Below, piece after piece: positions 1 through 16,534 of a DNA stretch of 48,224 bases. The stretch comes from a bacterium (GTDB taxonomy: Bacteria; BMS3Abin14), in assembly GCA_029210545.1 (NCBI GenBank), contig JARGFV010000004.1, positions 1,392 to 49,615 of the forward strand, written 5' to 3'. The translations under genes were made by a program, and so were the position numbers. The notes under the pieces are model-generated. The model was not told the origin of the DNA and did no database searches. It saw nothing but the letters and a program-made list of their open reading frames with translations. Position 1 is the stretch's first letter. Each line of letters begins with the position of its first letter.

Positions 1-634
1 ATGCTGTGCAGAGCTCCAGCCTGGGCCGGGTCATCGTGGCATTCTGAACAAAGCTCCGGGCCGGATTTTACCAGAAGAGAGCCGTTCTTCGAGGAATGGG
101 GATCGTGGCAGTCCACGCACCCTCCGTCCGCGGCGGCCTCGTGGACCACAGCCTGTCCGGAAGGGTCATCGTGGCATCCGACACACAGGTCGGCCGGGGC
201 CTCTGTGAGAAGGGAAGGGTTGTTCGAACTGTGGGGGTCGTGGCAGCCGGAACAGCCCTCATCCTCGATGATGGGGTGCAGATCGCCCTTTTCCGCAGGG
301 TCGTCGTGGCATTCGAAACAGAGGGTTGCCGGATCCTGGACCAGGAGCGTCTTGTTGGCTGATCCGTGGGGATCATGGCAGATCAGGCATCCCTCGTCCT
401 CGATGATGCTGTGCAGAGCTCCAGCCTGGGCCGGGTCATCGTGGCATTCTGAACAAAGCTCCGGGCCGGATTTTACCAGAAGAGAGCCGTTCTTCGAGGA
501 ATGGGGATCGTGGCAGTCCACGCACCCTCCGTCCGCGGCGGCCTCGTGGACCACAGCCTGTCCGGAAGGGTCATCGTGGCATCCGACACACAGGTCGGCC
601 GGGGCCTCTGTGAGAAGGGAAGGGTTGTTCGAAC
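1..634 (-). repeat. 405-bp internal duplication in the cytochrome gene
   Basis: Bases 1-229 are identical to 406-634, an offset of 405 bp. That equals 135 codons, or three two-haem modules (six haems). After position 229/634 the copies diverge while the haem motifs stay in register. The left copy may continue outside the window. Perfect identity over 229 bp suggests a recent in-frame expansion of the haem array, or gene conversion between modules. Confidence 0.95.
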
Positions 635-953
635 CATGGGGGTCGTGGCAGCCCAGGCACCCGTCATCCTCGATAACAGGGTGGATCTTCATCCCCTCGG
701 CCGGTTCATCGTGGCACTGGAAACACAGGGCATTTCCTTCCTCGACCAGGACCAGATTGTTGGCGTCGCCGTGATCGTCATGGCACGACTCGCAGTCAGT
801 CTCCTCGAAGGGAGAATGGACGGCCTTCATCCCCGAGATCTTCTGGGACCATTCGGCATGGCATGCGGCACAGTCGGCAGCCTGCGCGGGAGCGGTGAAT
901 ACCGCGGCAGCCAGAACAGCGCAAAAAAATACGAATGGTATTTCCCTGGACAT
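1..953 (-). CDS. Multihaem cytochrome c, doubled-CXXCH type (3' end outside window)
   Basis: Reading leftward from an ATG at 953, the product starts MSREIPFVFFCAVLAAAVF and has a signal peptide ending in AQA, so it should be exported to the periplasm or cell surface. The first CXXCH follows at once (CAACH, residue 28). Thirteen CXXCH motifs lie in this frame, with first Cys codons at 872, 794, 725, 659, 590, 524, 455, 389, 320, 254, 185, 119 and 50. From 725 on the spacing alternates strictly between 66 and 69 bases. The alternating CxxCHDDP and GCxxCHDPH blocks match the paired-CXXCH family, whose members carry electrons through covalently bound c-type haems. A GAGGGG ribosome site sits five bases before the ATG. 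The gene is cut by the window edge, so its full haem count is unknown. Partner and redox role cannot be read from the sequence. Confidence 0.93.
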   Translation of the reverse strand, partial: MSREIPFVFFCAVLAAAVFTAPAQAADCAACHAEWSQKISGMKAVHSPFEETDCESCHDDHGDANNLVLVEEGNALCFQCHDEPAEGMKIHPVIEDDGCLGCHDPHGSNNPSLLTEAPADLCVGCHDDPSGQAVVHEAAADGGCVDCHDPHSSKNGSLLVKSGPELCSECHDDPAQAGALHSIIEDEGCLICHDPHGSANKTLLVQDPATLCFECHDDPAEKGDLHPIIEDEGCSGCHDPHSSNNPSLLTEAPADLCVGCHDDPSGQAVVHEAAADGGCVDCHDPHSSKNGSLLVKSGPELCSECHDDPAQAGALHS

Positions 954-2502: not shown

Positions 2503-3210
2503 ATGCACATCCTGCTGGTAGACGATACCGAACTTTTTCTGGATCTCGAGAGAAGCTACCTCGAGAGGGATTCCTTTACCTTCAGTATCGCCAGGTCCGG
2601 GGACGAGGCGCTGGAAATCCTCAGGCAAAAGAGACCTGACCTGGTGATCCTGGACCTCATCATGCCCGGCATGGAAGGTGATGCCGTGTGCAGGGAAATA
2701 AAGGCCCATCCGGCTACCCGCAACATCCCCGTCATCATGGTAAGTTCAGCGACCCGGGAGGAGTTCAAGGACCGCTGTTACGCAGCCGGCTGCAACGCCT
2801 TCGTGGCGAAGCCTCTCAAAAGGGATGAGCTTCTCGAGGCCATCGAAAGGGTCATTGTCATCGCCAGGAGGACAAATCCGCGGGTGCCGACCCATCTACC
2901 CTCCAACGTCCGTCACGGAGAAAGGGAGCTGGACGCCTGGATCCACACAATCTCCGTCGGGGGGCTGTTCATTGAGATCGATCCGCCTCCGGAGTCCGGG
3001 GAGGTCCTCGACATAGTCTTCTCCCTGCCGCAAAGGAGCTCCACTATCCGATCCATGGTTCAGGTGCGGTGGTCGGGACGGGTCAGGGCCGACGGAGCTT
3101 CCGGCGTGGGTGTCCAGTTCCTCGATATCGAGGAGACCGACAAGGCCGCTATCGGGGATTACGTGGAGAAAAAGCTGTCCAGCGTGGGATCGCTGAAGGG
3201 CTTCGCATAA
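2503..3210 (+). CDS. Response regulator with C-terminal PilZ domain
   Basis: The 235-residue protein is a receiver domain (about 1-118) fused to a PilZ domain (about 120-230). Receiver residues visible are the acidic pair D7-D8, phospho-acceptor D51 in LVILDLIMPGM, and the Lys in FVAKPLK. The PilZ part keeps an RxxxR motif (RTNPR), the arginine pair that binds c-di-GMP in the family. Its second motif reads TISVGG instead of the usual D/N-x-S-x-x-G, so the acidic/Asn position is altered. It has no DNA-binding domain. It probably links phosphorylation by an unseen histidine kinase to a c-di-GMP-responsive output. A paralogue with an intact NLSEGG motif is at 43073-43792. The ribosome site is weak. 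Confidence 0.88.
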   Translation: MHILLVDDTELFLDLERSYLERDSFTFSIARSGDEALEILRQKRPDLVILDLIMPGMEGDAVCREIKAHPATRNIPVIMVSSATREEFKDRCYAAGCNAFVAKPLKRDELLEAIERVIVIARRTNPRVPTHLPSNVRHGERELDAWIHTISVGGLFIEIDPPPESGEVLDIVFSLPQRSSTIRSMVQVRWSGRVRADGASGVGVQFLDIEETDKAAIGDYVEKKLSSVGSLKGFA

Positions 3211-3270
3211 TTTAAATGGGTCAGAAACCTGCGCGGGTTTCTCCGGCAGGCTCCTGACCCATTTAAATTA
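3208..3270. repeat. Perfect 17-bp inverted repeat overlapping a stop codon
   Basis: TAATTTAAATGGGTCAG at 3208-3224 is exactly complementary to 3254-3270. The 29-base loop holds a second small hairpin (AAACC...GGTTT, 3225-3240). The TAA stop of the REC-PilZ gene is the first triplet of the left arm. It could cap the mRNA 3' end or act as a weak terminator. There is no T-run directly after it. Confidence 0.8.
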
Positions 3271-3278
3271 TTATTGTT

Positions 3279-3315
3279 AAAAACGGGGCCGATAAATACC
3301 GGCCCCCCCGTTTTT
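3279..3315 (-). terminator. Bidirectional intrinsic terminator after the Cys-rich peptide
   Basis: AAAAACGGGGCCG (3279-3291) pairs with CCGGCCCCCCCGTTTTT (3299-3315) around an AT-rich loop, giving a GC stem with A/T tails on both sides. On the minus strand it starts at the stop codon of the small peptide gene and ends in TTTTT. On the plus strand it can also terminate the REC-PilZ transcript. Confidence 0.8.
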
Positions 3316-3377
3316 CAGCAGGAGCTGCAGCACTTGCAGAGCCCCTTGCTCTCCTTCCTGATCTTGATCAGCTTCAT
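3315..3377 (-). CDS. 20-residue Cys-rich peptide, putative radical-SAM substrate
   Basis: The ORF from the ATG at 3377 encodes MKLIKIRKESKGL followed by CKCCSSC, a basic leader-like half and a terminal block with four Cys in seven residues. AAAGGAGGTGATC lies eight bases before the ATG and is an almost complete match to the anti-Shine-Dalgarno end of 16S rRNA, far stronger than at neighbouring genes. The TGA abuts an intrinsic terminator. The gene follows the radical SAM/SPASM gene on the same strand with 87 bases between. Size, Cys-rich core, context and strong initiation signal fit a RiPP precursor of the sactipeptide/ranthipeptide or 'geopeptide' kind. No transporter or peptidase gene is adjacent. 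A metal-binding peptide is the alternative. Confidence 0.75.
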   Translation of the reverse strand: MKLIKIRKESKGLCKCCSSC

Positions 3378-3436
3378 AACGATCACCTCCTTTAAAGACT
3401 AATTCCAGATATATATTTCCAGTTTACTAGGCCTTT

Positions 3437-3464
3437 TTGAAATTTGGAATATGGAATCTGGAAT
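3437..3464. repeat. Heptanucleotide tract (TTGGAAT-like, 4 units)
   Basis: Units TTGAAAT, TTGGAAT, ATGGAAT and CTGGAAT follow in exact 7-bp register and stop one base before the stop codon of the radical SAM gene. This is one of at least ten heptamer tracts in the window. Confidence 0.75.
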
Positions 3465-4646
3465 TTATTTAACTCCCCTAAAGTAGCACTGCACCGCGTC
3501 GGGGGCCAGTTTCGACCCCCCCAGCACCTCGGCCCTGTACCGGCATCCCCCCGCGCACACATCCTTGAGTTCACAATCACAGGCAAGGGTGCCCAGGGGA
3601 ATGTGCTCCACTTTCGACCATACCTCTGCCAACCCGTCCACCAGAACGTTGCCTGCGGGATGGTCGAAGTAGAACCCGCACTTGGCCGCTGTTCCGTCGG
3701 GCGCCACCGTCATGAGGGCCGAACCGCAGGCGAGGCCCGCTGATCCCCCATGGAAACCTCCCCCGTAAGCGAAACGCAGTTTTTCGCTGGCCGTTCTTAA
3801 CGCCGCCCCTGCAGCCGGATGGTCATGCCAGCGCCCCGCGGGGCACGGCACGTCGATGCTCCACTCTTCCACATTGAACCGTTCCAGGAGCCGGGACATG
3901 GCCTCGAACTGCTCCAGGTTGCCGTCGTGGACCATGGTCCCCACCGCCACCGGGACCCCGGCCTCCCGCAGGGCCATGATCCCCGCCACCGCCCTGTCGA
4001 ATGATCCCGCTCCCCGCAGGGCGTCGTGCCCCTCGCCCATCCCGTCCAGTGAGACCTGGACCTGGTGGAACCGCTCGCCAAGCCGGCAGGCCTCGACAGG
4101 CCCTATCCACTCTCCGTGGGTTATGAGCACTGCCCTGAATGGCGCTTCAGGCAGCAGATCGGCCAGGGCTTCGAATTCAGGGTGAACGGCGGCCTCACCC
4201 CCTGAAACCATAACCTTGAGCCCCTGCATAACGGCGAACTGGTCCAGGACCGAACGGAAGGTTCCAACGCTCATGTCGACAGGACGGGGAGGTCCCAGGT
4301 AGCAGTGACGGCACGCCTTGTCGCACCGGCCGGTGACCTGTACCTCCAGATATCGCAGAGACGGATCGGCTGATCGCCCGGGCACCTGGACGGACACCTT
4401 CCGGGGCATTTCCTGGAGAAGGCCGGCTTCGGCCAGGAGACCGGCCGCTTCGGGATCGTCAGCGCCTTCGGACAGGGCAAGGATCCTCCCCAACGATTCG
4501 TCGTCAAGGAGGTACAGCTCGTCCGCGGCCGCGTCGTAGATGTGCGGCTCTTCGAGGCGTTTGAGGTAGCAGTGATTTTTGAGAGTCAATTCAAGATTCA
4601 AAAGGTTCACAACGTGCAATATAAGCCTAAATGCACTTGTGTGCAA
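3465..4646 (-). CDS. Radical SAM/SPASM peptide maturase
   Basis: The protein of about 393 residues has three parts. Residues 20-85 form a small N-terminal region with the pattern YDAAADELYLLDDESL, reminiscent of PqqD-like precursor-recognition domains. The radical SAM core begins near residue 98 with CDKACRHC (C108, C112, C115), which ligates the [4Fe-4S] cluster that cleaves SAM. The C-terminal SPASM region (about 300-393) has CGSAL, KCGFYF, CDCELKDVCAGGC and a final CYF, enough cysteines for auxiliary clusters. SPASM enzymes typically crosslink or otherwise modify ribosomal peptides. The Cys-rich 20-mer just downstream is the likely substrate. The start is uncertain: no ATG exists near the 5' end. 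TTG at 4646 and GTG at 4610 are options, both without a clear ribosome site. Confidence 0.85.
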   Translation of the reverse strand: MHTSAFRLILHVVNLLNLELTLKNHCYLKRLEEPHIYDAAADELYLLDDESLGRILALSEGADDPEAAGLLAEAGLLQEMPRKVSVQVPGRSADPSLRYLEVQVTGRCDKACRHCYLGPPRPVDMSVGTFRSVLDQFAVMQGLKVMVSGGEAAVHPEFEALADLLPEAPFRAVLITHGEWIGPVEACRLGERFHQVQVSLDGMGEGHDALRGAGSFDRAVAGIMALREAGVPVAVGTMVHDGNLEQFEAMSRLLERFNVEEWSIDVPCPAGRWHDHPAAGAALRTASEKLRFAYGGGFHGGSAGLACGSALMTVAPDGTAAKCGFYFDHPAGNVLVDGLAEVWSKVEHIPLGTLACDCELKDVCAGGCRYRAEVLGGSKLAPDAVQCYFRGVK

Positions 4647-4696
4647 AACCAGGTTATAGCCTACTCGCCAGTTTTCTCTTTTTTGAATCTTGAATT
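4588..4696. repeat. 16-bp inverted repeat spanning the radical SAM 5' end
   Basis: AATTCAAGATTCAAAA (4588-4603) is exactly complementary to TTTTGAATCTTGAATT (4681-4696). The arms carry TTGAATC/TTGAATT heptamers. The left arm encodes N-terminal residues of the radical SAM protein; the right arm lies in the divergent intergenic space before hflX. The promoter and start of the maturase therefore sit in the 77-base loop. Confidence 0.75.
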
Positions 4697-15661: not shown

Positions 15662-16534
15662 ATGGTGATCATACGACTGACTGGGGGGTTGGGTAACCAG
15701 ATGTTTCAGTATGCCGCCGGCAAGCGTCTGAGTCTTGCCAGGGGCGTCGAACTGAAGCTGGATATCAGACGCCTTCGAGGAAATTCCTATAGAAAATACC
15801 ACCTGGATGTTTTCCATGTCTCCGAGAAGTTTGCCACCGAAGAAGAGATACGGAAGCTAATACGCGGAAAAATTTCGACATGGCTGCTCCTGCCATTCCG
15901 GCAGAAGCTCGGTGTAAGTTTCATGCCTCCGGTTTTTTACCCTGAAAGACAATACACTTTTGATCCGCTGGTGTTGGAACTTGAGGATAATGTCTTCCTG
16001 AAAGGACGCTTCCATTCCGAAAAATATTTCGCTGATGTAGCTGATATCATCGTTGAAAAATACAAATTGAAATCGGTTTCAGCCAGGGCGGGATTTCTGC
16101 ATGCTGAGATCGTCGGATGCGATTCTGTGAGTGTCCATGTCCGCCGGGGAGATTATGTTGCCAAACCTCAGAACCTTGCCAGATACGGGACCTGCGGTAA
16201 GGAATATTACGAAGAGTGCATCCGAAGAGCTCTGGAAGTCAGCGACAAGTCAAGGTTTTTTGTTTTCAGTGATGAACCGGACTGGGTACGGGCGAACATG
16301 TCCTTTCCTGAAAATACATTTTTCACGACCAGGGAAGGGTTAAGCTGTGACGCGGAGGAACTGTTTCTCATGAGTTCGTGCCGTCAGCACATCACGGCAA
16401 ACAGCACCTTCAGCTGGTGGGGCGCCTGGCTGGACAGGAGTCCCCAGAAGATAGTGTACACTCCAAAGAGATGGTTCTTGGCCGAAGACCTGGACACACA
16501 AGATCTCATTCCTGAAACGTGGATAAGGGTTTGA
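15662..16534 (+). CDS. Alpha-1,2-fucosyltransferase, GT11 family
   Basis: The 290-residue protein begins VIIRLTGGLGNQMFQYAAGK, the GT11 N-terminal signature. It carries the GDP-fucose motif HVRRGDY near residue 160 and NSTFSWWGAWL near 245. GT11 enzymes transfer fucose from GDP-fucose in alpha-1,2 linkage and are common in O-antigen clusters. The start lies 15 bases after the sulfotransferase stop, so they are probably one operon. Base composition is lower in GC than the flanking genes, consistent with transfer. No GDP-fucose synthesis genes are seen here. Confidence 0.93.
   Translation: MVIIRLTGGLGNQMFQYAAGKRLSLARGVELKLDIRRLRGNSYRKYHLDVFHVSEKFATEEEIRKLIRGKISTWLLLPFRQKLGVSFMPPVFYPERQYTFDPLVLELEDNVFLKGRFHSEKYFADVADIIVEKYKLKSVSARAGFLHAEIVGCDSVSVHVRRGDYVAKPQNLARYGTCGKEYYEECIRRALEVSDKSRFFVFSDEPDWVRANMSFPENTFFTTREGLSCDAEELFLMSSCRQHITANSTFSWWGAWLDRSPQKIVYTPKRWFLAEDLDTQDLIPETWIRV

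Follow-up and report, generated by a model that had tools for sequence, protein, structure and literature searches.

Several described pathways pair a short peptide with a radical SAM enzyme. SCIFF peptides are short and cysteine-rich, are accompanied in many genomes by a single radical SAM enzyme carrying RRE and SPASM domains, and have been argued to be non-antimicrobial (PMC8326336). An N-terminal domain followed by a radical SAM core and a SPASM domain is the layout of the maturases CteB and SuiB (PMC8326336, PMC6231123), and SkfB, the sporulation killing factor sactisynthase, carries an N-terminal peptide-binding domain ahead of its radical SAM core (PMC6231123). In the PQQ (PqqA/PqqD/PqqE) and mycofactocin pathways, a very short precursor and a SPASM enzyme give rise to an intracellular or periplasmic redox cofactor. 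Precursors of the PqqA type are only slightly longer than 20 residues. The geopeptide (TIGR04280) and GeoRSP (TIGR04303) enzymes are likewise radical SAM maturases, with small peptides as their presumed substrates.

Here we analysed a locus in a 48,224-nucleotide stretch of bacterial DNA (the window; contig JARGFV010000004.1, GTDB lineage BMS3Abin14), in which a gene for a radical SAM/SPASM enzyme is followed by a 20-codon open reading frame with a cysteine tail. As in the SCIFF/ranthipeptide pair CteA and CteB, a short cysteine-rich peptide accompanies a single radical SAM enzyme; however, SCIFF has six cysteines in about 45 residues, whereas the present system has three or four in 20, includes an accessory protein and is found in other hosts. 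The enzyme shares the domain layout of CteB and SuiB, and it shares with SkfB, its best profile match among solved structures, the order of N-terminal domain and core. SkfB differs in having a Twitch domain and a toxin-like secreted peptide, in place of which the present system has a seven-cysteine SPASM pattern, a putative 20-residue substrate and no export genes. Its peptide also lacks the Glu-Tyr or Val-Tyr core of the PQQ and mycofactocin precursors, the tail being based on cysteine.

The first-pass annotation, made from the window's sequence, had described the open reading frame as lying 3′ of the radical SAM/SPASM gene on the same strand, with a near-complete anti-Shine-Dalgarno match and an intrinsic terminator directly behind it. 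All of these elements were recovered (Table 1). The two genes are separated by 87 nt, the terminator hairpin begins 9 nt past the peptide stop codon, and the peptide genes of relatives have a strong Shine-Dalgarno sequence as well. As also annotated, no exporter or protease adjoins the peptide and enzyme genes in the window, where the neighbours are ExbB/ExbD-like genes, a convergent response-regulator/PilZ gene and a divergent gene for an HflX-type GTPase.

Table 1. Features of the peptide system in the window and, for the accessory protein, elsewhere in the same genome.
Feature	Position	Strand	Remarks
20-codon peptide gene MKLIKIRKESKGLCKCCSSC	ATG 3377, last codon to 3318, TGA 3317-3315	minus	conserved 20-mer, co-occurring with enzyme
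Shine-Dalgarno region AAAGGAGGTGATC of peptide gene	3393-3381	minus	13-base anti-Shine-Dalgarno match
Intrinsic terminator, directly 3′ of peptide stop	3276-3306 (hairpin 3306-3285 plus T tract)	minus	GC-rich, 9-pair hairpin
Radical SAM/SPASM enzyme, 393 aa, N-terminal PqqD/RRE-like region	3465-4646	minus	start uncertain: TTG 4646 or GTG/TTG at 4610-4589
Accessory protein in the window's own genome	contig C31, about 15683-16141		profile match, distant from enzyme

Three further features of the window were recorded. A 26-nt inverted repeat (3207-3271, arms 92% complementary) separates the PilZ gene from the peptide terminator; it is perhaps a two-way terminator, and its arm motif has no other occurrence within the window. 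Rfam gave sub-threshold miRNA matches only, on this repeat, and a non-coding RNA was rejected as a candidate. ExbD-like and MotA/TolQ/ExbB-like genes occupy 1249-2392 on the minus strand, and related genes are found near the enzyme in some relatives too. A long open reading frame at 1-953 (minus strand) contains repeated CxxCH-like stretches and a tandem duplication of 405 bp (89% match); its sequence resembles that of a multihaem cytochrome.

The window enzyme contains a Radical_SAM domain (PF04055, E=5e-15), detected in 19/19 family members, and the cysteines of its CxxxCxxC motif (C108, C112 and C115) are invariant in the family alignment. The seven-cysteine SPASM pattern is complete (C307, C323, C356, C358, C364, C368 and C387, invariant in 19 aligned sequences), with the Pfam SPASM model matching weakly in 6/19 enzymes. 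Comparison of the enzyme profile with solved proteins returned SkfB (6efn, E=9e-25) as the best match, together with PqqE (6c8v, E=1e-18) and CteB (5wgg, E=2e-14). An RRE in the N-terminal region is suggested only, because the PqqD-type models match this region weakly (best E about 0.002-0.02, in few members); the N-terminal domain had no match in the PDB, and structure prediction from three sequences gave a mean pLDDT of 46.

The comparison with TIGRFAM radical SAM maturase models recommended by the first-pass annotation gave no score above threshold: the enzyme stayed below the cut-offs for PqqE and the mycofactocin maturase and below that of each of the 25 best NCBIfam families listed, and a distant relative likewise reached none. 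The possible relation to geopeptides raised at that stage did not hold, since with TIGR04280 the enzyme reached 11.4 bits, the cut-off being 400, a score exceeded by three further radical SAM proteins encoded in that genome. Membership of GeoRSP was rejected as well (TIGR04303, 65.7 bits against a cut-off of 400). The 20-mer had no matching protein family model, a plasmid search returned no match, and motif and topic searches of open-licence papers found no description of it. The system looks like an undescribed member of the radical-SAM-modified peptides, and it is placed within that class because no new chemistry is proven.

Conservation was assessed across 386 genomes, many of the assemblies being fragmented or incomplete. 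Orthologues of the enzyme were present in five related genomes (53-65% identity where full length); the peptide was encoded just 3′ of the enzyme in three of them (MKLVKVSKKSRGLCKCCSSC, MKLIKVSKKSRGLCKCCSSC and MKLVKVKKESRGLCKCASSC) and distant from it in the other two. An enzyme profile search identified 20 positive genomes, including distant groups, and short open reading frames of the form [MVL]-K-[IL]-[KR]-K-[VI]-x-K-x5-CKC-x-SSC occurred near most of their enzymes. When the same 386 genomes were searched with a strict DNA pattern for the peptide, it was found in 19/20 enzyme-positive and 0/366 enzyme-negative genomes (Fisher's exact p about 3e-31, uncorrected for shared ancestry); an extra match in one enzyme-negative genome had a frame with an internal stop. 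The twentieth enzyme-positive genome (G296) encodes a variant 20-mer, MKITKVTPQTSTLCKCKSSC, which brings the peptide to 20/20.

Mean codon-position mismatch within the peptide gene was 0.61 at third positions, compared with 0.37 and 0.32 at the other two. Third positions thus differ far more than first and second positions, showing that the open reading frame is conserved as protein. The first-pass annotation had named a frame without conservation, with substitutions that ignore codons, as the observation that would count against it; the peptide is instead conserved residue by residue while third positions drift. The 20-codon open reading frame with its cysteine tail is a real gene, far beyond what chance would produce. 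In the classification used, the window, G182 and G053 belong to groups that count as separate phyla, and it is likely that the system is present in further phyla. One of these genomes (G182) has two peptide genes (L092:7920-7982 and L093:8469-8531), only one of which lies beside the enzyme.

Sampling was extended to a large phylum (that of G271 and G134), where the enzyme was present in 118/396 genomes, and the loci of 100 of these 118 were examined. A peptide was encoded at 69 of the 100 loci, without exception immediately 3′ of the enzyme gene in the same orientation, with a median gap of 44 nt. No peptide was found at the remaining 31, among which one lacked a called enzyme and four ended within 100 nt of it; the other 26 or so, with enough flanking sequence, were concentrated in certain families. 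One such family (f124) includes G134, whose peptide sits elsewhere in the genome. Peptide copies remote from the enzyme were demonstrated for G001, G002 and G134 only, and in G468 no remote peptide was present in the 400 kb scanned of 1.82 Mb (22%). In a further genome sampled later (G390), the enzyme, a 20-mer (MTIKRITRVSKGLCKCKNSC) and the accessory protein occur together. At one locus (G158, L106:4293-5590) the peptide gene begins with a TTG that overlaps the stop codon of the enzyme gene, an arrangement suggestive of translational coupling.

The peptide was 20 residues long in 90 of 91 copies from 90 genomes. The brevity that the first-pass annotation had called exceptional for a precursor is thus a fixed property of the family. 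The sole 19-residue member (MIKKVLKKLLNTCKCKGSC, G592, L188) is encoded immediately 3′ of its enzyme. Across 80 distinct 20-mers, Cys-14, Lys-15, Cys-16 and Cys-20 are invariant and Ser-19 is nearly so, each peptide containing three or four cysteines. The N-terminal half is basic and alternating (M-K-[IL]-x-K-[VI]-x-K). Basic residues and serine are conserved in addition to the cysteine codons.

A third component was found in the form of a small cysteine-rich accessory protein, about 80-160 aa and sometimes longer, which adjoins the enzyme in several genomes and in one (G108, L103:910-2343) is fused to the enzyme's N terminus. Its profile detected a member in 19/20 enzyme-positive genomes, the one without it being 73% complete, and in 0/366 others, where a single weak match broken by stops was not counted. 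Searches of the accessory protein against Pfam and NCBIfam gave no significant family, one member (L232) shows a weak C-terminal cupin match, and comparison of the enzyme and accessory profiles revealed no convincing relation (probability 12%).

The first-pass annotation had proposed the 20-mer as a precursor peptide paired with the SPASM maturase. Conservation and co-occurrence strongly support the pairing, and co-occurrence together with adjacency ties the two genes genetically; that the enzyme modifies the peptide, which residues would change and what the product might do are read from sequence. We favour a model, to which we assign a probability of roughly three in four, in which these loci encode a new family of radical-SAM-modified peptides, with the 20-mer as substrate, the accessory protein as a participant and a probably intracellular product. 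The N-terminal half of the 20-mer would serve for recognition and the CKCxSSC tail would be modified. The RRE-like N-terminal domain of the enzyme would hold the first half of the peptide (roughly 12 residues) as a beta strand, while the radical SAM/SPASM core acted on the tail, a cysteine cross-link being the simplest guess. The accessory protein may take part as a chaperone, as a cluster carrier or as the client of the product. The product itself would stay intracellular and act in redox chemistry or in the handling of metal or sulfur, in connection with Fe-S/ferredoxin metabolism and the shielding of that metabolism from oxygen.

Genomic context was consistent with such a duty in certain lineages. 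Three genomes from a single phylum (G053, G330 and G198) have the enzyme and peptide genes at the end of a run encoding a DsrE-like protein, an IscS-type cysteine desulfurase, an IscU-type scaffold and TusA. In the large phylum, one flank often encodes the accessory protein, a rubrerythrin-like protein and both subunits of a 2-oxoacid:ferredoxin oxidoreductase, and the other often encodes superoxide dismutase, nitroreductase and rubrerythrin; at least one of these neighbours was present at 41/100 loci, in seven families but chiefly in three. The lone peptide gene of G134 lies beside genes assigned by likeness to superoxide dismutase, nitroreductase and a ferritin-like protein. Other genomes have housekeeping neighbours only, and the sulfur, Fe-S and oxygen-defence contexts are limited to certain lineages, with no such hint from the window's own neighbours. 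Where they occur, these neighbours point to a putative metal, sulfur or redox duty. A more specific version of the model, which we regard as tentative, is that the product is an intracellular peptide cofactor, radical-modified at CKCxSSC, to which iron, an Fe-S cluster or persulfide sulfur binds; together with the accessory protein, it would serve ferredoxin-linked enzymes during oxygen stress.

The alternative that survives best, which we nevertheless consider unlikely, is that the peptide is an unmodified metal- or sulfur-binder and that the enzyme acts on another member of the pathway, such as the accessory protein. A free tail with three to four cysteines could bind metal by itself, the accessory protein is also cysteine-rich and tracks the enzyme equally well, and the peptide is sometimes distant from the enzyme. 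Against this, most loci have the peptide gene directly 3′ of the enzyme gene, with an overlap of the two in G158, and an N-terminal domain of this kind on a radical SAM/SPASM enzyme is typical of peptide maturases.

We give less credence to a secreted antimicrobial precursor, a sactipeptide-like bacteriocin, despite the fact that SkfB, the nearest solved relative of the enzyme, makes a sactipeptide. The tail hardly varies from one phylum to another, the leader is all but absent, and the shared neighbours include no recurrent exporter, protease or immunity gene. An intracellular factor is probably the better fit, because the tail is constant, the spread is wide and export genes are lacking; the same argument has been made for SCIFF.

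A regulatory leader peptide, acting as a cysteine attenuator, is very improbable. Although a short cysteine-rich open reading frame with a terminator immediately behind it recalls such a leader, it was rejected on gene order: the frame is downstream, not upstream, of the enzyme in the window and in 69 loci, and the next gene after it is convergent. Conservation of the basic residues and serine speaks against attenuation as well. A chance open reading frame or non-coding RNA segment can be dismissed, since the 20 codons, few as they are and without a matching family model, show protein-level conservation with third-position drift and co-occur with the enzyme.

The model of a radical-SAM-modified 20-mer would describe a system of a rare kind, as very widely distributed three-part peptide systems with no family model for either peptide or accessory protein are seldom met. 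It is easily overlooked because the precursor has only 20 codons and the parts are often unlinked. With one enzyme and a synthesisable 20-residue substrate, it is open to direct testing in vitro. A peptide of constant length with an invariant tail, occurring in several phylum-level groups, is more suggestive of a basic function of the cell than of a weapon, and that function may lie in the chemistry of Fe-S, sulfur and oxygen. If the cofactor reading is true, the peptide would be a further peptide cofactor of radical SAM/SPASM origin beside PQQ and mycofactocin, one that is widespread yet overlooked.
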